Positions 1,991 to 19,460 of a stretch of 22,485 bases of DNA are shown here, piece after piece (within the stretch, counting starts at the first letter, position 1; every line of letters starts with the position of its first letter). The position numbers and the translations under genes were made by a program. A model generated the notes under the pieces. It was not told the DNA's origin. It ran no database searches and worked only from the letters and a program-made list of their open reading frames with translations. This stretch comes from a virus, in IMG/VR virus record IMGVR_UViG_3300026183_000041, positions 1 through 22,485 of that record; one strand, written 5' to 3'.

Positions 1991-2407
1991 ATGAGCAAAG
2001 ATTGGGTAAAAGATATTAATGATATGCACACAAAATATGGTGTGAAAGAAGCCGTAGAAAAAATGAACAATCTAGATCTACGAACATTCTTAAATTTTAG
2101 AATTAATTTTCTCAAAGAAGAATTGAACGAAACAATCGATGCAGCATCTAATGCTGGCTATATCGATTGTGAAGAGGTAGTTGATGGTCTTATTGACCTA
2201 TGTGTTGTGGCTATTGGAACTCTTGATGCTTTTGGTATTGATTCCAATAAAGCATGGGATGCTGTACTTGAAGCAAATATGAATAAAGAAGTTGGGATTA
2301 AAGAATCCAGGCCAAATCCATTGGGCCTTCCTGATTTGATTAAACCAGAAGGTTGGACAGCTCCTTCTCATGAAGGAAATTATGGTGATTTGAAAAAGAT
2401 TTCTTAA
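1991..2407 (+). CDS. MazG-like / all-alpha NTP pyrophosphohydrolase
   Basis: 138 residues. The pattern matches the all-alpha NTP pyrophosphohydrolase superfamily (MazG, HisE, dimeric dUTPase): EELNE at residues 43-47 followed by EEVVDGLIDL (61-70) supply the acidic Mg-binding residues, and EANMNKE (94-100) is the usual downstream Asn/Lys element. These enzymes hydrolyse (d)NTPs to monophosphate plus pyrophosphate. In a phage that also encodes dCMP hydroxymethylase, a role in removing dCTP/dUTP (the job of T4 gp56, which belongs to the same superfamily) is plausible but only inferred; control of the host nucleotide pool or ppGpp, proposed for cyanophage MazG, is the alternative. The start is fixed by the promoter immediately upstream. 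The next ATG follows one base after the stop, so the two genes probably share a transcript. Confidence 0.85.
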   Translation: MSKDWVKDINDMHTKYGVKEAVEKMNNLDLRTFLNFRINFLKEELNETIDAASNAGYIDCEEVVDGLIDLCVVAIGTLDAFGIDSNKAWDAVLEANMNKEVGIKESRPNPLGLPDLIKPEGWTAPSHEGNYGDLKKIS

Positions 2408-5451: not shown

Positions 5452-6081
5452 ATGATTAACACAGTAAAATTATTGGGATACTATGGATCAGATGAAGTCA
5501 TCGCCTGTAGTGCATGGACATCAACATCAAGAGACTTAACAGATGATAAAAAGAAGCGCATACCTAAACTCATTAACATGTTATGGAGAGAGGGACATGA
5601 AACACCCTTTGAAAAAGGTACTGTGCATTTTCTCGTGGATTGCGATATTGCTAGCCACATTCATCTTCTTAAGCATAGGATTAGCTCTCTCAATGCTGAG
5701 TCAGCGCGTTACAAAGAGCTTAAAGAAGACAAGTTCATAGTACCAGACGATTGGTCTGAATATTGGCAAAAAAAATTAGCATACTATACACAACAAGGTA
5801 ACGAGCTCTATCATCAATGTGTAGGTGAATTAAGTGATACTTTAGGTCGTAAACGTGCTAAAGAGAGTGCACGCTTTTTTAAGACCTATAATAGTAAGAT
5901 TCAGTCTGATATTATGTTTAATATGCGTTCATTTGGAAACTTTTTGAAGCTTCGTAATAGCGAACATGCTCAAAAAGAAATCAGAGAAATTGCAGAGAAA
6001 ATGCTTAAGCTCGTAGAGAATATTGAAGGCAATCCTTTTGAAGCGACTTTTAGTGCTTGGAAATCAAAAGGAACTATCTAA
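5452..6081 (+). CDS. thyX: Flavin-dependent thymidylate synthase ThyX
   Basis: 209 residues. ThyX makes dTMP from dUMP using FAD, NADPH and methylene-tetrahydrofolate. The ThyX signature RHRx7SxR appears as KHRISSLNAESARY (residues 74-87) with the first Arg replaced by Lys and the essential Ser at 84. Other family landmarks are GHETPFEKGTVHF (48-60) and the C-terminal MRSFGNFLKLRNSEHAQKEIR segment, where Arg and His contact the nucleotide and flavin. Length is typical for the family (200-250). It is followed 41 bases later by the dCMP hydroxymethylase, so the two nucleotide-modifying enzymes are neighbours although under separate promoters. T4 itself uses the unrelated ThyA-type gene td. Confidence 0.95.
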   Translation: MINTVKLLGYYGSDEVIACSAWTSTSRDLTDDKKKRIPKLINMLWREGHETPFEKGTVHFLVDCDIASHIHLLKHRISSLNAESARYKELKEDKFIVPDDWSEYWQKKLAYYTQQGNELYHQCVGELSDTLGRKRAKESARFFKTYNSKIQSDIMFNMRSFGNFLKLRNSEHAQKEIREIAEKMLKLVENIEGNPFEATFSAWKSKGTI

Positions 6082-6122: not shown

Positions 6123-6851
6123 ATGCAAAAAGTTATAGACATTAAAGAAACATTTATTGACCTTTATAAAAAAGGAGAATTTGTTCAAGATAAGACAGGT
6201 GTAAAAACAATCGAATTGGTTGGTGCTTCATTTATTGCTGATAAACCAGCAATCTTTGGTTCCCCAAATCAAGACTATATCAACCGAGAAATCTCTTGGT
6301 ACGAATCAAAAAGCCAATATGTTTATAACATTCCTGGTGATACACCAGCGATTTGGAATCAAATTGCATCAACTAAGGGTAAAGTAAATTCTAACTATGG
6401 GTATCTCATTTATCACAAAAACAATTACGAGCAATATAAAAATGTTCTTCAACAACTATTAGTTGATCCTAATTCTCGTCGTGCTGTTATGATTTATCAG
6501 CGCCCTTCGATGCATGAAGATTTCAATGTTGATGGTATGTCTGATTTTATTTGTACCAATGGTGTTCAGTATGTTGTGCGTAATAACTATGTTCACGCAA
6601 TTGTTCAAATGCGATCAAATGATGTTGTCTTTGGATATCGTAATGACTATGCTTGGCAAAAGTATGTTTTAAAAAAGCTAGTAAAAGATCTAAATACACT
6701 TGGTGAAAACAAATATTCTATTGGTGATATCACATGGCAAGTTGGCTCTCTTCACGTTTATGAAAGACATTTTAAATTTATTGAATCTGAAATTAAATTA
6801 GCTGAAAGTATCGATCGTGCTCATGTTCTAGCGGCAAAGGCAATGGGATAG
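6123..6851 (+). CDS. 42: dCMP hydroxymethylase (T4 gp42 homologue)
   Basis: 242 residues, against 246 for T4 gp42. It converts dCMP to 5-hydroxymethyl-dCMP with methylene-tetrahydrofolate, the first step in replacing cytosine in phage DNA. Blocks closely similar to T4 gp42 run through the protein: DKTGVKTIELVGASF (23-37), SNYGY (90-94), DPNSRRAVMIYQRPSM (115-130), DGMSDFICTNGVQY (137-150), MRSNDVVFGYRNDYAWQKYVL (163-183) and SLHVYERHF (209-217). The nucleophile is Cys144. Asp175 (RNDYAW) stands where thymidylate synthase has the dUMP-selecting Asn, which is the hallmark of dCMP specificity. Start at 6123 is supported by alignment to gp42 and by the promoter placed immediately before it. Alternative: a thymidylate synthase, made unlikely by Asp175. 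Confidence 0.95.
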   Translation: MQKVIDIKETFIDLYKKGEFVQDKTGVKTIELVGASFIADKPAIFGSPNQDYINREISWYESKSQYVYNIPGDTPAIWNQIASTKGKVNSNYGYLIYHKNNYEQYKNVLQQLLVDPNSRRAVMIYQRPSMHEDFNVDGMSDFICTNGVQYVVRNNYVHAIVQMRSNDVVFGYRNDYAWQKYVLKKLVKDLNTLGENKYSIGDITWQVGSLHVYERHFKFIESEIKLAESIDRAHVLAAKAMG

Positions 6852-6866
6852 ATAAAATAGAATGTT

Positions 6867-7316
6867 ATGACTAATATTAAATTTAATGCCAACGATTTAG
6901 AACATAGTTACTATATTGAAAGAGCTAGAAAGGAAACTGAAGAAATTCATTCTAAAGAAAGCACTCGAAAAAATAGAACTTTTGTCGAAATATTTAAAAC
7001 TACATTGTATGGTCATGCGCCAGAAGTTTACTTAATTGAAAAATGTGGTTTTACTGACGATGTCCGTAAATACAGAGACGTGATTCACCCAAATGGTAGT
7101 CCTGTTGAAGTAAAAGCTACTAAAGGAGAATACTATGTTCCTTATGTCTTAAAAAGAGCAAATCGCGCGGCATCAAAATCATGGACAAATTATCCTAAGA
7201 TTTTATACATTTTTATTGGCGATAAAAATACAGGTGATTATACATTCCATGGATCATATGATTGGGATAAAAATAGCAAAAAATTTGTTTTACAAAGCAA
7301 CACAATTTTAGTATAA
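6867..7316 (+). CDS. PD-(D/E)XK nuclease-like protein
   Basis: 149 residues. Residues 45-85 look like a restriction-endonuclease core: a helix with Glu (HAPEVYLIEKCG, E53), then YRDVIHPNGSPVEVKATK, where D71 and E81-x-K83 fit the D-(x)n-ExK metal-binding motif. The following Arg/Lys-rich stretch and the YPKILYIFIGDK strand suit the fold. It starts 15 bases after gene 42 and lies on what looks like the same transcript. A nuclease next to dCMP hydroxymethylase suggests an enzyme that cuts unmodified cytosine DNA, as T4 endonucleases II and IV do, but those are other families and the substrate here is inferred. No recognisable Shine-Dalgarno sequence precedes the ATG. Confidence 0.6.
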   Translation: MTNIKFNANDLEHSYYIERARKETEEIHSKESTRKNRTFVEIFKTTLYGHAPEVYLIEKCGFTDDVRKYRDVIHPNGSPVEVKATKGEYYVPYVLKRANRAASKSWTNYPKILYIFIGDKNTGDYTFHGSYDWDKNSKKFVLQSNTILV

Positions 7317-7317
7317 T
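7289..7317 (+). promoter_or_regulatory. Sigma70-like leaderless promoter inside the end of the nuclease-like gene
   Basis: TTTACA (7289-7294), 17-base spacer, TATAAT (7312-7317); the -10 box overlaps the TAA stop of the upstream gene. Predicted start near 7324, one base before ATG 7325. Confidence 0.75.
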
Positions 7318-7324
7318 ATCTCAT

Positions 7325-7660
7325 ATGGAAAAAGAATCAATTAAAGTGCTTAATGAATGTGCAGAAGTTCAAATTAAAAAATCCCGGGATTACCAAAACC
7401 CTAATTCACGAATTAAGCAATCAGATTATTATCCTCGAGGTGTTATGTCAATCATGGAATTGATTAACACGAAAACAATTCGTTTGTGGTCAGTAATTGA
7501 AGCAATGGAGAATGATCCAGAATATGAACCTAACTTTGAGTCGATTGAAGACTCACTAAAAGATTTGATCAATTACGCGTCATTTGCTGTGGCGTATTCA
7601 CGAGGAAAAATAGAAGGACAGCGTCCGGATCGTGATTTTCTCAATCGTGAAAAAAAATAA
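7325..7660 (+). CDS. DUF1599 / Nmad1-like protein (nucleotide-modification associated)
   Basis: 111 residues, all helical. The layout N-E-C-A...KKSRDYQNPNS...SIMELINTKTIRLWSVIEAM...ESIEDSLKDLINYASFAV fits my memory of DUF1599, called nucleotide modification associated domain 1: a K(S/N).DY element, a helix with regularly spaced Lys/Arg, then a D(L/I)INYA helix near the C-terminus. Such proteins are found near enzymes for hypermodified bases in phages; no reaction is established here. The setting between dCMP hydroxymethylase and glucosyltransferase agrees with that. Alternative: another all-alpha NTP-pyrophosphatase-like protein. Start fixed by the leaderless promoter just upstream. Confidence 0.55.
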   Translation: MEKESIKVLNECAEVQIKKSRDYQNPNSRIKQSDYYPRGVMSIMELINTKTIRLWSVIEAMENDPEYEPNFESIEDSLKDLINYASFAVAYSRGKIEGQRPDRDFLNREKK

Positions 7661-7668
7661 AAACACAC

Positions 7669-8904
7669 ATGAAAATTGTACATATATTGGGTAGAGGCAT
7701 CGAAGGTTGTGGTGTAACTCGCTTTACTTTAGAAATGAAAGATTGGGCATTAGCTCAAGGGTGGGATTATAAAATTTATGCCACTAAAGATAAACGTTGG
7801 ACTAGGTCAAAATCTCATGATTTAGGTGAAAATGTAATTGAACAAAAATTCGGTAATAAGCCTTCGAGAGGTGATACCATCTATGGTGTTAATAATATTA
7901 TTGAAGACACGAAGGACGCTGATATGGTGATTATTGGCTCTCTCCCTTCAAAAGGTCATCCAGATGATTGCATTGAGAACTTTAGCAAACTTATTGATAA
8001 TATTAACACTAAGCTTGTTATGATTCAACATGATCATAAAATGATGTCAATTCGACGAAATTCACTCCTTGATGAAACAATTAAAAAGTCTGATGTTATA
8101 TTTTCTTATTCTACAAAGAGTCCTTTTATGAATTATTGTAGAAGTCTTGGAACAAACGCAGCACTATATAATTTCTGTAATGGGATTGATATTTCAGAGA
8201 TTAAAAATAAATATTGGAAATCAATTGAAGATCAGGATGAAAATCATTTAAAATGGATTGGGCGTAGTGCGTATTGGAAAGGGTTTGACGTTCTTTTCGA
8301 CTTATATGAAAACAACGCAAAAAATCAAGGGTTTCTTTTTACATTAGAAGGAATGGAACGATCAATTCAGTTTGCAGATATACGTAAAAAATTTGATTTC
8401 CATCATCCAGATAGTGACTTCAACTTTAAATTAGAATACAACACTAAACCTTATGTATTTTCAGCATACAAATATACTGAAATGCTTGAAAGATTATCTA
8501 AATGTGCTTTTGGTTTTCAACTAACATATCTTCAACCTGAATACATTCAAAATTTTATTGAATTTACTCACCTGGAAATTGTAGCGGCTGGATGCATTCC
8601 AATATTTAGAAAGTCTTATGGCGATCATTGCTATCATTTACAGACCGGTAATCCAATGACTTTTGATAACGATAATGGAACAATCTGGCTTGGAGAAGTT
8701 GGTTCAGATCATACGCAAAATATGGAGTTAATCAATCAACTAAGAAAAGATTCTATAATGCGGGATGAATGGAGACATAAAGCTTATGAATACTATTATT
8801 CTCACAACTCACCTGATTCATCTTTTAATGATTTTTTCAATAAGGTGAAAAAAACAAATAAAGAAACTAAACGTATTGTAAATATTGAAGAGTTTTTTGT
8901 ATAA
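7669..8904 (+). CDS. agt: DNA alpha-glucosyltransferase (T4 AGT homologue)
   Basis: 411 residues; T4 AGT has 400. It transfers glucose from UDP-glucose to 5-hydroxymethylcytosine in DNA in alpha linkage, protecting phage DNA from restriction. The GT-B fold start GRGIEGCGVTRFTLE (8-22) matches ARGLEGCGVTKFSLE of T4. Further shared blocks are MIQHDHKMMSIRRN (118-131, with active-site His/Asp), IGRSAYWKGF (197-206), EGMERS (227-232), LERLSKCAFGFQL and THLEIVAAGCIPIFRKS. The last 20 residues (from KKTNKETKR) extend past the T4-like end. Together with gene 42 it is strong evidence that this phage makes glucosylated hydroxymethylcytosine. The next gene starts one base after its stop. Confidence 0.93.
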   Translation: MKIVHILGRGIEGCGVTRFTLEMKDWALAQGWDYKIYATKDKRWTRSKSHDLGENVIEQKFGNKPSRGDTIYGVNNIIEDTKDADMVIIGSLPSKGHPDDCIENFSKLIDNINTKLVMIQHDHKMMSIRRNSLLDETIKKSDVIFSYSTKSPFMNYCRSLGTNAALYNFCNGIDISEIKNKYWKSIEDQDENHLKWIGRSAYWKGFDVLFDLYENNAKNQGFLFTLEGMERSIQFADIRKKFDFHHPDSDFNFKLEYNTKPYVFSAYKYTEMLERLSKCAFGFQLTYLQPEYIQNFIEFTHLEIVAAGCIPIFRKSYGDHCYHLQTGNPMTFDNDNGTIWLGEVGSDHTQNMELINQLRKDSIMRDEWRHKAYEYYYSHNSPDSSFNDFFNKVKKTNKETKRIVNIEEFFV

Positions 8905-8905
8905 G

Positions 8906-10102
8906 ATGAAAAATAAATATAATTATGCTTCATGTGTTCCACTCATAGGTGGTGAAACGCTTGCAATGGAAAACGCCTTTGGAAAAAGACCTGAATATAT
9001 TTTATCATATTCACCTTTTCAGGACAACGACTCACAGCTTCTAAAACATTATAACAATGAAGTACCTTATCATTTAATTGATGAAGGTGATGAAAAGAAA
9101 AGTTATGTAGATGTTGTAAATGCAGTATGCCCATGTGCTGGTTTATCTTCTCTTAGTCCATCAGCTTCAACAGACAATAAGGCAAATGATTGGATGGTTG
9201 AATCTGCAAAATATGTTTTAGGTGAAGTTAAACCTAAAGTCTTTTGGGGAGAAAATGCTCCTCGTCTTGCATCAAAGATGGGTAGCCCTATTGTAAAAAA
9301 ACTAAGAAATTTAGCAAAAGAAAATGGTTATACTTTACTTTTATACAAAACAAAATCAAAATTGCACGGCTTAAGCCAAACTAGGGATAGATCTTTTTAT
9401 TTCTTTTGGAAAGGAAAACGAATTCCATATATGCGTTTTCACCATCGCCCGCATGAAAGAATTGAAGATACAATTTTAAATGCTTTTGTTTCCGACGATG
9501 ATCCTATGAATCAATTGACGAATAGTGGTAAACCATCAGAGAATCCTTTTTACAGATATGTTTTAGAAGAAATTGAAGGTGGTATTACACATAGGCAATT
9601 CTTTGATAAGATTGAAAGAACTATTAATCCTATGGATTATATAGAAAATCATGGTATAGAATATGATAAAGTTGCTGTTTGGATGGAAAATAATGGTTAT
9701 CCCAAAAAAGCAGAAAGATGCTTACAGGTTCATAAAAAACTAAAAGCTGGAGGAAATGTTATGCGTAAATTGACCGAAATACCAAAGGATTATATTGGTG
9801 CTTTTGTAGGTCATATGCCAATGTGCCTTACACACCCACACGAAGACAGATATCTTACAATAAGAGAGTGTTTAGCGATTATGAAAATGCCAAAGGATTT
9901 TCAACTTCAAGGAGGAAAAAGAAATCTTAATATGATTTGTCAAAATGTTCCTGTTAGTACAGCTACAGACATGGCATTAAATATTAAAGATTGGCTTGAT
10001 GGAAAATTAGATAGTCGCGAAGCAGATTTTGGTATTGCTGATAATAAGAAACAAACAATAGAATTTGAAGAAAATATTCAAACCATTGAATCATTCATTT
10101 AA
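8906..10102 (+). CDS. C5-cytosine DNA methyltransferase homologue, divergent
   Basis: 398 residues from ATG 8906; an in-frame ATG at 8885 lies inside agt and is less likely. Motifs in order: motif I-like PLIGGETLAMENAFG (12-26; usual FxGxGG reduced to LIGG), motif IV CPC (75-77, nucleophile Cys77), motif VI GEN (115-117), motif VIII QTRDR (158-162), a long variable region (about 170-300) in place of the target-recognition domain, and motif IX/X elements (LTIRECLAIMKMP and CQNVPVSTATDMA). The catalytic residues are therefore present while the SAM-binding start is unusual. It is the last gene of the modification cassette. An active 5mC methylase seems redundant if cytosine is replaced by hydroxymethylcytosine; it could act on residual cytosine or host DNA, or have another substrate. 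Confidence 0.85.
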   Translation: MKNKYNYASCVPLIGGETLAMENAFGKRPEYILSYSPFQDNDSQLLKHYNNEVPYHLIDEGDEKKSYVDVVNAVCPCAGLSSLSPSASTDNKANDWMVESAKYVLGEVKPKVFWGENAPRLASKMGSPIVKKLRNLAKENGYTLLLYKTKSKLHGLSQTRDRSFYFFWKGKRIPYMRFHHRPHERIEDTILNAFVSDDDPMNQLTNSGKPSENPFYRYVLEEIEGGITHRQFFDKIERTINPMDYIENHGIEYDKVAVWMENNGYPKKAERCLQVHKKLKAGGNVMRKLTEIPKDYIGAFVGHMPMCLTHPHEDRYLTIRECLAIMKMPKDFQLQGGKRNLNMICQNVPVSTATDMALNIKDWLDGKLDSREADFGIADNKKQTIEFEENIQTIESFI

Positions 10103-10156: not shown

Positions 10157-11209
10157 ATGTCCTTATTAGAAAAACTCAAAAAATCATCCCGCTCTGCGGG
10201 TGCTTCAGTCCTTTCAGAATCTAAACTTTTTTCTGAAAAGGAGCTGACTACAACACCAGTTCCAATGATCAATGTTGCCCTTTCAGGTTCTATTGACGGC
10301 GGCCTTGCGTCTGGTCTTACAGTACTTGCTGGTCCATCAAAACACTTTAAAACATCCTTTGCGCTTTTGATGGCAGCAGCGTATCTTAAAAAACATGAAG
10401 ACTCTGTGCTAATTTTTTATGATTCAGAATTTGGTTCACCGCAATCATATTTTGAATCTTTTGGAATCGACACTTCACGTGTTCTACATACTCCAGTTAC
10501 AAATATCGAAGAACTAAAATTTGATTTGGTACACCAATTACAAGAGATTGATCGTAATGATAAGGTAGTTGTTGTTATTGACTCAGTCGGTAATATTGCT
10601 TCGAAGAAAGAAGTCGAAGATGCTGAAAATATGAAATCAGTTGCTGATATGACACGTGCTAAAGCGCTTAAAGGTTTGTTTAGAATGGTTACTCCTATGC
10701 TAACATTAAAAGATATTCCTCTTCTAGCAATCAATCACACATATATGGAGCAGGGGATGTTTCCAAAGGCTGTTGTCTCAGGAGGAACAGGTGTAATGTA
10801 TTCAGCAGATAATGTTTGGATTATTGGCCGACAGCAAGATAAAGATGGCACAGAAATCAAAGGATACCACTTTGTGATTAATGTTGAAAAATCACGGTTT
10901 GTTAAAGAGAAATCGAAGATTCCGATTTCAGTTTCTTGGGAAGGTGGAATCCAAAAATGGTCTGGTCTATTAGATGTTGCAATGCAAGGTGGATATGTGG
11001 TTAAACCTAAGAATGGTTGGTATATGGCAAAGAATCCAGCGACAGATGAAGAACTTTCAGGAAACGTAAGAGCTAAGCAAACGTTGGAAAAGACGTTTTG
11101 GACACCAGTGTTTGAAAAGACAGACTTTTCGAACTTCATTACAAAGAAGTTTAAAGTTGGTACAGTAGAAATGGTAACAGAAGAAAGTGATGACAGCGAA
11201 GAAAATTAA
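10157..11209 (+). CDS. uvsX: UvsX RecA-like recombinase
   Basis: 350 residues (T4 UvsX 391). It is the phage strand-exchange protein for recombination-dependent replication and repair. Walker A is the UvsX variant GPSKHFKTS (59-67), Walker B is VVVVIDS (137-143) followed by VGNIASKKE, and AINHTYMEQGMFPKAVVSGG corresponds to the L2 DNA-binding loop region. The conserved GGTGVMYSADNVWIIGRQQ block follows, and the acidic C-terminal tail (ESDDSEEN) matches the regulatory tail of RecA-family proteins. Order uvsX - small gene - gp41 is as in T4 (uvsX-40-41). The downstream gene starts inside its last codons, suggesting coupled translation. Confidence 0.95.
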   Translation: MSLLEKLKKSSRSAGASVLSESKLFSEKELTTTPVPMINVALSGSIDGGLASGLTVLAGPSKHFKTSFALLMAAAYLKKHEDSVLIFYDSEFGSPQSYFESFGIDTSRVLHTPVTNIEELKFDLVHQLQEIDRNDKVVVVIDSVGNIASKKEVEDAENMKSVADMTRAKALKGLFRMVTPMLTLKDIPLLAINHTYMEQGMFPKAVVSGGTGVMYSADNVWIIGRQQDKDGTEIKGYHFVINVEKSRFVKEKSKIPISVSWEGGIQKWSGLLDVAMQGGYVVKPKNGWYMAKNPATDEELSGNVRAKQTLEKTFWTPVFEKTDFSNFITKKFKVGTVEMVTEESDDSEEN

Positions 11210-11516
11210 CGTAGATAAGTTTATTCAATTTGTTGAAAAAGGTGATAGCGAACTTTATTCATTAAAGGTTGTACAAGGCCCTTATTCTGGTGTAATATAC
11301 ACTTATGGCAAAGTACAAATCAAAGGTACTCTTGAAGAACCAATTGTTAAATTTGATTTTACTATCAATGAAGTACCGAAAGGTAAGAAAAAAGCTAAAT
11401 TAGAAAAATCTAAAAGGTTTAAAAATTTTATGGGAGACATATTAGTCTCTATGCTCGAAGAAGAAATTAATGACAAATCTACAAAAACTGATCCTCAAGA
11501 ACCTGACAACGGATGA
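11190..11516 (+). CDS. Small protein between uvsX and gp41, gp40-like by position (head vertex assembly chaperone)
   Basis: 108 residues from ATG 11190 (GTG 11187 in the same frame is an alternative, and AAGAAAG lies just before both). It overlaps uvsX by 20 bases and gp41 by 47, so the three are probably translated together. Sequence shows an N-terminal KFIQFVEKGDSELY segment, two beta-strand stretches (LKVVQGPYSGVIYTYG, VKFDFTINEV), a Lys-rich turn (PKGKKKAKLEKSKR) and a helix (MGDILVSMLEEEI). Length and place match T4 gp40, a head-assembly chaperone of about 114 residues, but I assign it mainly from synteny, not from motifs. Confidence 0.6.
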   Translation: MTAKKINVDKFIQFVEKGDSELYSLKVVQGPYSGVIYTYGKVQIKGTLEEPIVKFDFTINEVPKGKKKAKLEKSKRFKNFMGDILVSMLEEEINDKSTKTDPQEPDNG

Positions 11517-12837
11517 AGAATTCTGTCGTCAGACATTACCACATCTCAAAACTGAATATTTTGAGAATGAACATAAGCCAGTCTATGAGCTTATTTTAAG
11601 TTTTTTAAGTAAATACAACAAATTACCTAGTTCAGCAGCCTTAGATGTTGAGTTTCAAAAGTCAGATTTTATAAATAAATCTAATTGTAATGATATTCAC
11701 AATTTAATTCTTGATTTGAATAATCATGAGAAGGTTGATAGAGAATGGCTACTGAACTCTACCGAGGAATGGTGTAAGCAAAGAGCTGTGTATCTTGCTA
11801 TCATCAAGTCAATCAGCATCATCGATGGAAAGGAAAAACAATTAACAGATGGTGCAATCCCCGGAATATTATCCAAGGCGCTTCAAGTGTCTTTTGATAC
11901 GAATGTTGGTCACGATTATTTTGAAAACTCAGAACAAAGATACGATTTTTACCATGCTCAAGAAGATAAAATCCCGTTTGATATATCGCTCCTCAACACC
12001 ATTACAAAAGGCGGTGTTTCAAATAAAACTCTTAATATCATACTTGCAGGTACAGGTGTGGGAAAAAGCCTCGCAATGTGTCACTTTGCTAGTGCCAACC
12101 TCGCCGCTGGACTCAACGTATTATACGTTACTCTCGAAATGGCAGAAGAAAGGATTGCTGAGCGAATCGATGCAAATTTACTTGATATCCCGATTGATCA
12201 ACTTGAGACGTTGCCTCAACAACTTTTTTCTTCCAAAGTTGATAAGCTCAAAGAGAAGTCTAGAGGCCAACTTATTGTAAAAGAGTATCCTACAGCTACT
12301 GCGCATGTTGGCCATTTTAGAGCATTGCTTGACGAACTTAGATTAAAAAAGAATTTCAAGCCTGATGTCATTTTTGTTGATTATCTTAATATTATGGCAT
12401 CATCTCGAATTAAAGGGCTAGGTAGCTCTGTTAATACTTACTCATTGATCAAAGCTATTGCTGAAGAATTGAGAGGCCTTGCAGTTGAGAATGACGTACC
12501 TATTTGGTCAGCAACTCAGGTTACTCGATCAGGTTTTGGAAATACTGATGTTGAATTGACAGATACATCTGAATCATTTGGTCTTCCGGCAACAGCAGAC
12601 TTAATGCTTGCTTTGATATCAACCGAACAGCTTGAAGGTATGAATCAACTCATGGTTAAACAATTGAAAAACCGTTACAATGATCCTACTCAAAACAAGA
12701 GATTCGTAGTCGGCATTGATCGAGCAAAAATGCGGCTTTTCGATGTTGAAGATTCAGCTCAAACCTTATCTAGTGACGAAATTACAACACCTCCATCACA
12801 ATGCGGAAATAGTGATTTTTCAGCCTTTAAAATCTAA
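11470..12837 (+). CDS. 41: Replicative DNA helicase gp41 (DnaB-like)
   Basis: 455 residues (T4 gp41 475). Hexameric 5'-3' helicase of the replisome. N-terminal helical domain (1-150, with LPHLKTEYFENEHKPVYELI as in DnaB-family N-termini), then a RecA-fold domain: Walker A AGTGVGKS (193-200), TLEMAEERIAERI (221-233, catalytic Glu region), Walker B VIFVDYLNIM (300-309, Asp304), H3 SATQVTRSG (347-355, sensor Gln350), and QLKNRYNDP near the C-terminus. The C-terminal tail is unrelated and low in structure (TTPPSQCGNSDF). Start ATG 11470 overlaps the preceding gene and is preceded by GAAGAAG, a plausible ribosome site. A terminator-like hairpin lies 38 bases after the stop. Confidence 0.95.
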   Translation: MTNLQKLILKNLTTDEEFCRQTLPHLKTEYFENEHKPVYELILSFLSKYNKLPSSAALDVEFQKSDFINKSNCNDIHNLILDLNNHEKVDREWLLNSTEEWCKQRAVYLAIIKSISIIDGKEKQLTDGAIPGILSKALQVSFDTNVGHDYFENSEQRYDFYHAQEDKIPFDISLLNTITKGGVSNKTLNIILAGTGVGKSLAMCHFASANLAAGLNVLYVTLEMAEERIAERIDANLLDIPIDQLETLPQQLFSSKVDKLKEKSRGQLIVKEYPTATAHVGHFRALLDELRLKKNFKPDVIFVDYLNIMASSRIKGLGSSVNTYSLIKAIAEELRGLAVENDVPIWSATQVTRSGFGNTDVELTDTSESFGLPATADLMLALISTEQLEGMNQLMVKQLKNRYNDPTQNKRFVVGIDRAKMRLFDVEDSAQTLSSDEITTPPSQCGNSDFSAFKI

Positions 12838-17305: not shown

Positions 17306-17625
17306 AAGACTTAATTAACACTGTAAAAGAATTAAATGAGCAGATGTATGGCTCAGTCGATTTTAACGATTGGACATATGCCAATCCAAATAATCCCATG
17401 GTTATTATTTCAGGATATGGATCAATGAAGTTTGATCAACTTAAAAAATCTATTGATCAGGATTTGAAAAAGCTTTCTAAGACAAAAAATTATAGTGTTC
17501 TTAAATATGAAATTGGTCATCGTTCATCGCCATCAGCACTACAGGTAAAGATTGATGCAGCTGAAGGAATTATTGCGTTTATGAATGGTAAAACGTATAA
17601 AAAATTAATTAAAAAAGGACAATGA
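17302..17625 (+). CDS. Small late protein, unknown
   Basis: 107 residues from ATG 17302, which overlaps the previous stop as ATGA; GGGAG just before it is one of the few Shine-Dalgarno-like sequences in the window. An in-frame TTG at 17293 is a poorer choice. Helix LINTVKELNEQM, strand VIISGYG, then a Lys-rich helix (FDQLKKSIDQDLKKLSKTKN) and EIGHRSSPSALQVKIDAAEGI. No recognised family. Its stop overlaps the next start (ATGA 17622-17625), so it is translated between the ligase-like and the nucleotidyltransferase-like late genes. Confidence 0.75.
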   Translation: MKDLINTVKELNEQMYGSVDFNDWTYANPNNPMVIISGYGSMKFDQLKKSIDQDLKKLSKTKNYSVLKYEIGHRSSPSALQVKIDAAEGIIAFMNGKTYKKLIKKGQ

Positions 17626-19460
17626 TTAAATCTTTTAAACAGTTTAGTGAGGATACTAAAAAGGAAATTGTTTTTACCTTTGGAAGATTTAATCCTCCGA
17701 CAATCGGACACGCAAAGTTGATTGATAAAGTTGCTGCAGCTGCTATTGGTAACCAATATAGAATTTATGCGTCGCAATCAAGCGATTCTAAAAAGAATCC
17801 TCTTGAATATAAAGAAAAGATTCGTGTAATGAGGAAAATGTTTCCCAAGCATGGACGTAATATCATTGAAGATAAAAATGCAAAGACGGCATTGCATATT
17901 GCTTCTATTTTACACGATCAAGGTTTTACAAAGATCACTATGGTTGTTGGTTCTGATCGAATTAGTGAATTTACAAAACTCCTTAAAAACTATAATGGTG
18001 TAAAAGGCCGCCATGGGTTTTATGATTTTAAAGATGGTATTGATGTTGTTTCTGCTGGTGAAAGAGATCCAGATGCTGAAGGTGTTTCAGGCATGAGTGC
18101 TTCTAAAATGCGCGCTGCAGCACTTGAAGGCGACTTTAAATCGTTTAGCCAAGGTTTACCTAAAGAGTATGGTGAAGATATGACTTTATTTAATCTTATT
18201 CGTAAAAGAATGGGATTGAAGGAAATGACAACTTTTCGTAAGCACGTTCAATTGCCAAGCCTTTCAGAAAAAAGAGAGCAATATATTTCGGGTAAAATTT
18301 TTAATGTAGGAGATAGTGCTATTACTGAAAATGGTGAAACAATTGTAATTAAAGAAAGAAAAGCAAATTACATTGTTGACACAGTTGGTAAGAAATATTT
18401 TATTGAAAAACTTTCAGCGTCTTATGGTAAAGGTCTTTCAAAATCTACCAAAGATAAACGTCAGGCTCAGTTTAATAAGCAAGCAAAAATGGATGATGAT
18501 GATCCAAGAGCATATAAGCCTGCACCTGGTGATGCAAGAGCAAAAACTAAACCTTCAAAATACACTAAAGCATATCACAAAAAATATGGTAAAGAAGAAG
18601 CTTTAGAATTGGGTACGGATGATCTTGTTAAAGCATATAAAAAGTTAACACCTCTTGAAGAAAAACAGATCGCTGGACTTAAGAAAAAATCAAAAGAGTC
18701 TGGTATATCATATGGTATTTTAAAGAAGGTATATGATAGAGGTATGGCTGCATGGAAAACAGGACACAGGCCAGGAGCAACACCACAGCAATGGGCTTTT
18801 GCTAGAGTGAATTCATTTATTACAGGAGGAAAAACACAAAAGACAACTGATTCAGATCTTTGGAAAAAACATAAAGTGATGAAAGAATCTTTTGAACCAC
18901 ATTGGATGTATGATCCAAAAACTGGAGAAAAAGAAAAAGCTAAAAAACCTGAGGATCATGAAAGGCTGGCTGCAAAGGGATGGACACATGAGAATCCAGA
19001 ATTAGAACTTAATGAGAATATACTTTCAATCTTACAGTCATTTAAGAAAAAAGTCTCTCCGCAGAACATCAATCGTTTGAAGAAAACATTTAGGTTTTTA
19101 AGAAAGGTAAGACCTAAAAGCCCGTTATTTAAGGCTATTGATGATCTACTTGATGATTTAGATCCTAATACTTTAGAGAAACTAGCTGATGCTGGTATTA
19201 ACGTTGTTTCAAACATTGCTGCTTTAAAATTAAAATTAAAGAGAGAAGGTGTCGGTAAGACTAAAGAAACCTGGGAAGATGGTTTTGCTCGCCGTGTTGT
19301 AAAAACTACAGATTCTAAACATAAAGAACAGGGATACAAATGGCGTATCAAAGGTAAAGAGCGTGATGAGATATCAATTAAGCTTTACAAAAACAAGCCT
19401 GATTTTGATGAATTTAAAAAACAAATGAAACGTGTTGCAGGACACGAATTTGGAGGATAG
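17622..19460 (+). CDS. NMN-adenylyltransferase-like nucleotidyltransferase, multidomain head protein
   Basis: 612 residues. N-terminus MIKSFKQFSEDTKKE resembles a capsid-targeting sequence. Residues 15-200 are a HIGH-superfamily nucleotidyltransferase: GRFNPPTIGH (21-30) is the (H/T)xGH nucleotide-binding motif, and GMSASKMRAAA (157-167) is the ISxTxxR-like motif; NadM/NMNAT-type activity is the nearest guess. Residues 275-325 hold a basic block (KDKRQAQFNKQAKMDDDDPRAYKP), and 352-412 (GLKKKSKESGISYGILKKVYDRG, GHRPGATPQQWAFARVNSFI) a domain I recall as DUF5824. The last 150 residues are basic and of unknown type. A second SFK-like stretch, TTFRKHVQLPSLSE (203-216), may be another processing signal. 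An enzyme packaged in the head, possibly acting on host NAD, is inference. Confidence 0.8.
   Translation: MIKSFKQFSEDTKKEIVFTFGRFNPPTIGHAKLIDKVAAAAIGNQYRIYASQSSDSKKNPLEYKEKIRVMRKMFPKHGRNIIEDKNAKTALHIASILHDQGFTKITMVVGSDRISEFTKLLKNYNGVKGRHGFYDFKDGIDVVSAGERDPDAEGVSGMSASKMRAAALEGDFKSFSQGLPKEYGEDMTLFNLIRKRMGLKEMTTFRKHVQLPSLSEKREQYISGKIFNVGDSAITENGETIVIKERKANYIVDTVGKKYFIEKLSASYGKGLSKSTKDKRQAQFNKQAKMDDDDPRAYKPAPGDARAKTKPSKYTKAYHKKYGKEEALELGTDDLVKAYKKLTPLEEKQIAGLKKKSKESGISYGILKKVYDRGMAAWKTGHRPGATPQQWAFARVNSFITGGKTQKTTDSDLWKKHKVMKESFEPHWMYDPKTGEKEKAKKPEDHERLAAKGWTHENPELELNENILSILQSFKKKVSPQNINRLKKTFRFLRKVRPKSPLFKAIDDLLDDLDPNTLEKLADAGINVVSNIAALKLKLKREGVGKTKETWEDGFARRVVKTTDSKHKEQGYKWRIKGKERDEISIKLYKNKPDFDEFKKQMKRVAGHEFGG

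Follow-up and report, generated by a model that had tools for sequence, protein, structure and literature searches.

What would a cytosine-C5 methyltransferase (C5-MTase) do in a phage that is predicted to place 5-hydroxymethylcytosine (hmC) in its DNA? Phages with hmC are usually viewed as combining a dCMP hydroxymethylase (HMase) with a glycosyltransferase, and the T4 system, with its HMase gp42, has two glucosyltransferases (alpha-GT and beta-GT). That system is not known to include a C5-MTase homologue. The question is raised by a 22,485-base virus fragment from IMG/VR, of T4-like type and from a marine phage, which in its entirety is referred to here as the window. Its genes run in the order DNA polymerase, MazG-like pyrophosphohydrolase, ThyX, HMase, DNA alpha-glucosyltransferase (AGT), C5-MTase homologue, UvsX and gp41 (Table 1). 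The window resembles T4 in having a gp42-type HMase and an AGT clustered with the replication genes uvsX and gp41, and differs from it in the C5-MTase homologue that lies between AGT and uvsX.

The gene and its neighbours

The reading frame of the homologue runs from an ATG at 8906 to a stop codon at 10100-10102, encodes 398 residues, and begins 1 nt after the AGT stop codon. The product matches the Pfam family DNA_methylase (PF00145) with E 5.4e-18 and 65.9 bits, the curated cut-off being 22, and all 77 family members scored below match PF00145 at E <= 0.001. Estimates of dN/dS are about 0.05-0.07 for the homologue (three close pairs) and 0.12 for the AGT (one pair); the homologue's family is under purifying selection. 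A chance or misread reading frame at this position is ruled out by the Pfam match, the strong purifying selection and the synteny.

A preliminary description of this locus had placed the gene in an hmC-glucosylation cassette, and the neighbours are indeed as it described them. The AGT, with its PF11440 match (E 4.6e-59), is about 35% identical to T4-type a-gt, while the HMase has a thymidylate-synthase fold and shows about 60% identity to gp42 proteins of T4-like phages. Asp179 makes the T4 enzyme specific for cytosine (PMC6400193), and the equivalent Asp is found in all 139 HMase reading frames of the loci collected here, the window protein having GYRND. The MazG-like protein is a candidate for a dCTPase role. 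The family of the 111-residue protein encoded between HMase and AGT is common beside HMase genes and occurs in loci with and without the MTase homologue.

Two other reading frames of the window were noted. One encodes 149 residues (6867-7316), adjoins the HMase gene and has a PD-(D/E)xK-like pattern (DVIHPNGSPVEVKAT); similar patterns occur in reading frames nearby in other loci (L033, 5311-5922; L131, 3072-3524; L008, 499-1038). A family of this kind lies near the MTase homologue in 12 of 34 loci, and is present in 3 of 20 loci that lack the homologue. These proteins are possibly nucleases that spare hmC DNA. The other reading frame (17622-19460) encodes 612 residues and combines a cytidylyltransferase-like domain at the N terminus (PF01467, phrog_3041) with a DUF5824 domain.

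Table 1. Genes of the window that bear on the hmC cassette, and motifs of the C5-MTase homologue, by window position
Feature	Position	Strand	Basis
MazG-like nucleotide pyrophosphohydrolase	1991..2407	+	PF01503, phrog_671
ThyX, flavin-dependent thymidylate synthase	5452..6081	+	PF02511 E 7e-34; TIGR02170 above cut-off
dCMP hydroxymethylase (HMase), T4 gp42 type	6123..6851	+	RSND...GYRND, cytosine-specific Asp
111-aa ORF, distantly 'nucleotide modification associated domain 1'	7325..7660	+	PF07659 E 0.02, sub-threshold; phrog_1485
DNA alpha-glucosyltransferase (AGT)	7669..8904	+	PF11440 E 4.6e-59
C5-cytosine MTase homologue, PLIGG / PCAGLS family	8906..10102	+	ORF, PF00145, AlphaFold2 fold
Altered motif I VPLIGG, residues 11-16	8936..8953	+	P12, L13, G15, G16 in 77/77
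Motif IV CPCAGLS, residues 75-81, nucleophile Cys77	9128..9148	+	P76-S81 in 77/77
Motif VI GENAP, residues 115-119	9248..9262	+	E116, N117, P119 invariant
Motif VIII QTRDR, residues 158-162	9377..9391	+	Q158, R160, R162 invariant
Target-recognition region, residues ~175-305, mostly helical	9428..9820	+	secondary structure, family conservation
Motif X CQNVP, residues 345-349	9938..9952	+	Q346, N347, V348, P349 invariant
UvsX recombinase, downstream cassette anchor	10157..11209	+	phrog_97 E 2e-88; synteny
Replicative helicase gp41, DnaB-like	11470..12837	+	PF03796 E 4e-18

Catalytic residues, cofactor motifs and fold

Conservation was scored in 77 diverse family members that are 28-77% identical to the window protein. 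The CPC, GEN(AP) and QTRDR catalytic motifs reported earlier are present in the 398-residue protein, and C77, E116, N117, Q158, R160 and R162 are invariant (77/77), as are P12, L13, G15, G16, F38, N41, P76-S81, N94 and Q346-P349. The invariance of the catalytic residues argues for chemistry at C5/C6, with Glu116 of motif VI expected to contact the base.

When a profile of the family is compared with solved C5-MTases, the match starts at motif IV and does not cover motifs I-III, which indicates that divergence is concentrated in the cofactor half of the protein. Motif I of ordinary C5-MTases is FxGxGG; in the window protein it is VPLIGG, with V11 and L13 aligned by hhalign to F18 and G20 of M.HhaI. 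The LIGG to which the preliminary description drew attention is therefore no sequencing oddity, considering that P12, L13, G15 and G16 are the same in all 77 proteins. Three further changes go beyond that description: the Gln that follows the catalytic Cys is replaced by Ala (PCQ to PCA, with Ala78 in the position of M.HhaI Gln82), motif X reads QNVP rather than the GN or GNxV of ordinary enzymes, and a conserved acidic residue for the ribose is missing. All of the ordinary C5-MTases compared (M.HhaI, phage enzymes and six enzymes from viral contigs) have PCQ and GN, and their motif I either follows the FxGxGG pattern or is recognisably derived from it. The set was drawn from phage records and viral contigs, with M.HhaI added; the sequence used for the latter behaved as M.HhaI in searches.

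The alignment by hhalign to M.HhaI (probability 99.3) pairs D59 with D60, A78 with Q82 and N347 with N304. Of the 77 proteins, 64 retain D59, which corresponds to the adenine-binding Asp60, and all retain N347. Around motif II the alignment is of low confidence, hhalign pairing S34/Y35 with E40/W41 and MAFFT pairing S36 with E40. Position 34 is Ser or Thr in 77/77, and at position 36 any of S, T, E, K, A or D is seen, with Glu or Asp in 15/77, so that a conserved ribose-binding Glu is absent in both alignments; an acidic residue could occupy the ribose position in some members. The canonical cofactor motifs (motif I, ribose Glu, PCQ and GN) are thus lacking, the position of the ribose Glu being alignment-dependent. 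Because the non-standard pocket residues (P12, L13, F38, N41, A78 and Q346) are as invariant as the catalytic ones, the pocket appears to have been rebuilt and not to have decayed.

How far do these changes affect the overall structure? The structure prediction that had been proposed as a check was run with AlphaFold2 and gave a model with pLDDT 91.2 and pTM 0.89. Its best matches among solved structures are M.HaeIII (1dct; Z 25.6) and M.HhaI (Z 25.4; 294 residues aligned at 3.1 A), with CmoX, a phage protein discussed below, lower at Z 23.5. Judged by its scores and the matches at Z 25, the model contains the entire C5-MTase fold. The preliminary description had held that a standard SAM pocket, together with a standard target-recognition region and plain 5mC at a defined motif, would indicate an ordinary methylase; going by sequence, the protein keeps a standard fold but departs from the standard at motif I, at the ribose Glu and at the motif IV Gln. 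It had also called the target-recognition region of about 130 residues variable, which does not stand: the region is long but conserved within the family, the commonest residue averaging 63% there and 69% across the domain as a whole, and P210, W259 and K278 being invariant.

Family extent and linkage to hydroxymethylase

Relatives are numerous in viral contigs, with 172 recovered by a single-sequence query and at least 464 by an alignment query; four relatives sit on contigs of metagenome-assembled genomes, in a phage-like gene order. Among 50,697 annotated phage records, the window protein matches nine, which comprise cyanophages of the S-TIM5 type, Pseudoalteromonas phage XG4, Bacillus phage G and Nostoc phage YongM. 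The YongM protein is an ordinary PCQ enzyme, while the others carry the altered motifs, in looser form in phage G (FIFGGS, PCSGLS, QGVP). When the XG4 protein was used as the query, no relatives were confirmed in viral contigs, and the phage G protein gp301 recovered one further contig besides its own record.

The phylogeny and the survey of neighbouring genes that had been called for were also carried out. A maximum-likelihood tree of 34 rows, rooted by midpoint and with long branches flagged, places 19 family members, among them phage G, on one side of a branch with 100/99 support and 15 ordinary C5-MTases on the other. The homologue belongs to a distinct phage subfamily of enzymes with the C5-cytosine MTase fold, and it is no ordinary methylase acquired by chance. 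Compared with M.HhaI and M.HaeIII (PF00145), the family has the same fold, the same Cys/Glu/Arg set, the motif order I-X and a recognition region between motifs VIII and IX; it differs in VPLIGG, PCA, QNVP and the lack of a conserved ribose Glu, in its separate branch, and in its linkage to dCMP hydroxymethylase.

That linkage is strong in one direction. In loci samples that were chosen by similarity and length, and so are non-random, an HMase gene accompanies the homologue in 44 of the 45 loci that extend 5 kb or more upstream, and an AGT-like gene does so in 33 of the 45. All ten S-TIM5-type loci whose flanks are long enough have an Asp-type thymidylate-synthase homologue, as do XG4 and phage G. 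Since synteny within one clade is inherited, the fair count of independent support is four lineages, namely the window clade, the S-TIM5-type cyanophages, XG4 and phage G. In the other direction the linkage fails, the homologue being absent from 58 of 78 HMase loci; evidently the HMase does not need the MTase homologue. A restriction-modification methylase was considered and rejected, there being no endonuclease-like gene common to the 34 loci examined that carry the homologue.

Between the HMase and the MTase homologue, which stay constant, the genes that would decorate hmC vary. The variants include AGT alone; AGT with a UDP-glucose dehydrogenase and an epimerase; a TET-associated glycosyltransferase (PF20691); an inositol-phosphate synthase with an hmdU-kinase helical domain (PF18723); a divergent AGT with a cytidylyltransferase-like protein; and, in XG4, a nucleotidyltransferase with a glycosyltransferase. 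AGT is present in 22 of 34 loci with the homologue and in none of 20 without it (loci chosen for length), and T4 has an AGT but is not known to have the homologue. Among the same 34 and 20 loci no gene family resembling a dedicated donor synthase was found. A special donor made by the phage was rejected on these grounds, as only AGT tracks both the presence and the absence of the homologue.

Some of these cassettes merit comment in their own right. Six loci (L066 at 6173-8925, and similarly L058, L065, L079, L115 and L116) have a myo-inositol-1-phosphate synthase and a PF18723 protein in hmC cassettes, a hint of an inositol-derived cytosine decoration. In L099-L101 and L107-L109, AGT, UDP-glucose dehydrogenase, an epimerase and a radical-SAM gene share one HMase cassette, which suggests uronic-acid-type or further modified sugars on hmC. 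Other HMase cassettes lack both AGT and the MTase homologue (L123, L127, L135, L140, L143, L185, L186 and L192) and carry a family that resembles PF18723 proteins by eye; this family (the cluster of L140 4096-5265) is present in 10 of 20 loci without the homologue and in none of 34 with it, and hints at an alternative route of hmC decoration. Bacillus phage G (its record, L199 and L232) has a true ThyA besides the Asp-type homologue, and an AGT-like gene near the MTase homologue. From this combination, phage G DNA may carry modified cytosine.

Proposed function and alternatives

Because the family occurs here almost only alongside HMase genes, it probably edits hydroxymethylated DNA and does not carry out simple methylation. 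Our main reading, to which we assign a probability of roughly 45%, is that the homologue is a partner of the HMase that acts through Cys77 on cytosine or hydroxymethylcytosine in phage DNA, with an altered chemistry at C5. The HMase, by homology, would first place hmC in the phage DNA. The MTase homologue would then bind that DNA by its conserved recognition region and flip out the (hydroxymethyl)cytosine, and Cys77, aided by Glu116 and Arg160, would attack C6, as the invariant residues suggest. The outcome at C5 would be an altered substituent instead of ordinary AdoMet methylation, a step suggested by the rebuilt donor side (VPLIGG, no conserved ribose Glu, Gln to Ala, QNVP). Another group might be coupled to hmC, the hydroxymethyl might be removed, or a group might be transferred from a non-standard donor; activity, substrate, cofactor and product are all put forward here as predictions.

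Several precedents bear on this proposal. In M.HhaI, a transferred group that is extended can clash with Gln82, and the Q82A mutation considerably lowers methylation while slightly raising transfer of bulky groups (PMC10666283), so a natural Ala78 would suit a bulky C5 substituent or donor. The HMase being the constant partner, a C5 substituent or a donor bulkier than methyl would be the simplest interpretation. In vitro, C5-MTases couple thiols to hmC (PMC7176277) and appear to strip hmC, releasing formaldehyde (PMC11347137), which makes a dedicated natural version plausible. Those side reactions, like the hydroxymethylation of cytosine with formaldehyde, involve the same catalytic set and the same proposed substrate, but are known only from ordinary or engineered enzymes, and the literature searched yielded no natural enzyme devoted to them. 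Phages have, however, already switched the donor of one C5-MTase homologue, CmoX of Synechococcus phage S-B43 (PMC12783734, PDB 8YF3). CmoX serves in hypermodification with an altered C5 chemistry, as is proposed for this family, but it keeps the SAM contacts, has Arg350 and the partners CmoA and CmoY, and acts on C, whereas this family has Asn347 and the HMase. Together, the conservation across the family, the HMase in four lineages and the CmoX precedent strengthen the earlier suggestion of a C5-MTase homologue with changed cofactor motifs in an hmC pathway. We consider it less likely than not that this widespread natural family goes so far as to rewrite hmC with the C5-MTase nucleophile and no ordinary AdoMet methyl transfer, giving a new C5-substituted cytosine, or hmC erasure at chosen sites, in parallel to glycosylation.

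Perhaps, instead, the protein still methylates C5 with AdoMet, unusual as its cofactor motifs are, and makes plain 5mC on host DNA or on residual cytosines left by HMase or dCTPase leak-through. The whole fold, with its matches to M.HaeIII and M.HhaI at Z 25.6 and 25.4, and the retained GG of motif I speak for this, and the kept D59 (64/77) and N347 (77/77) are compatible with AdoMet binding and count against altered chemistry. No donor-synthesis gene travels with the homologue, so that a metabolite of the host, AdoMet for instance, would suffice. The retention of N347 and mostly of D59, together with the missing donor gene, keeps this alternative alive at perhaps one chance in three. Against it, the Leu at the position of Gly20 in motif I and the Ala for Gln in motif IV are invariant, unlike every ordinary C5-MTase compared, and the corresponding Q82A change in M.HhaI cuts methylation (PMC10666283). 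Moreover, methylation of residual cytosine or host DNA leaves the HMase link in four lineages unexplained, and the target-recognition region is conserved across phages, unlike what tuning to differing host restriction sites would produce.

A DNA-level hydroxymethylase, using formaldehyde or a folate one-carbon donor to turn residual cytosine of the phage DNA into hmC and so topping up the nucleotide-level HMase, is improbable. M.HhaI does perform the reaction with formaldehyde in vitro (PMC7176277), the HMase linkage holds whatever the later decoration, and a phage-made cofactor would not be needed; but the in vitro reaction used free formaldehyde at 13 mM, which is not physiological, and the homologue is commonly absent from HMase phages. 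Slightly less probable again is an idle or regulatory protein that reads hmC DNA by base flipping, for instance in directing glycosyltransferases, packaging or transcription. The gene often lies directly behind the last decoration gene and the cofactor pocket is changed, as such a reader might lead one to expect, but Cys77, Glu116, Arg160 and Arg162 are invariant in 77/77, down to 28% identity, and a pure binder needs none of them. A CmoX-like carboxymethyltransferase, making 5cxmC from carboxy-SAM, is very unlikely even though CmoX, itself a C5-MTase homologue from a marine phage, uses an alternative donor and is among the solved structures matched by the model (Z 23.5): the hallmark Arg350 is replaced by Asn347 in 77/77, an Arg at the Asn304 position and an SPPC motif IV both being absent and PCA taking the latter's place throughout; Glu47, Phe25 and Phe48, kept in CmoX (PMC12783734), are not clearly kept here; no CmoA-type Pfam match occurs among the scanned reading frames of the 22-kb window fragment; and the constant partner is instead the HMase.

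That hundreds of contigs, most of them marine, encode a conserved HMase partner with a C5-MTase fold suggests that cytosine hypermodification includes a step so far unrecognised. The question is testable now, considering that cultured phages (S-TIM5, phage G and XG4) carry members of the family. If a natural C5-MTase does handle hmC, its chemistry would be new and the enzyme would offer a means of labelling hmC.
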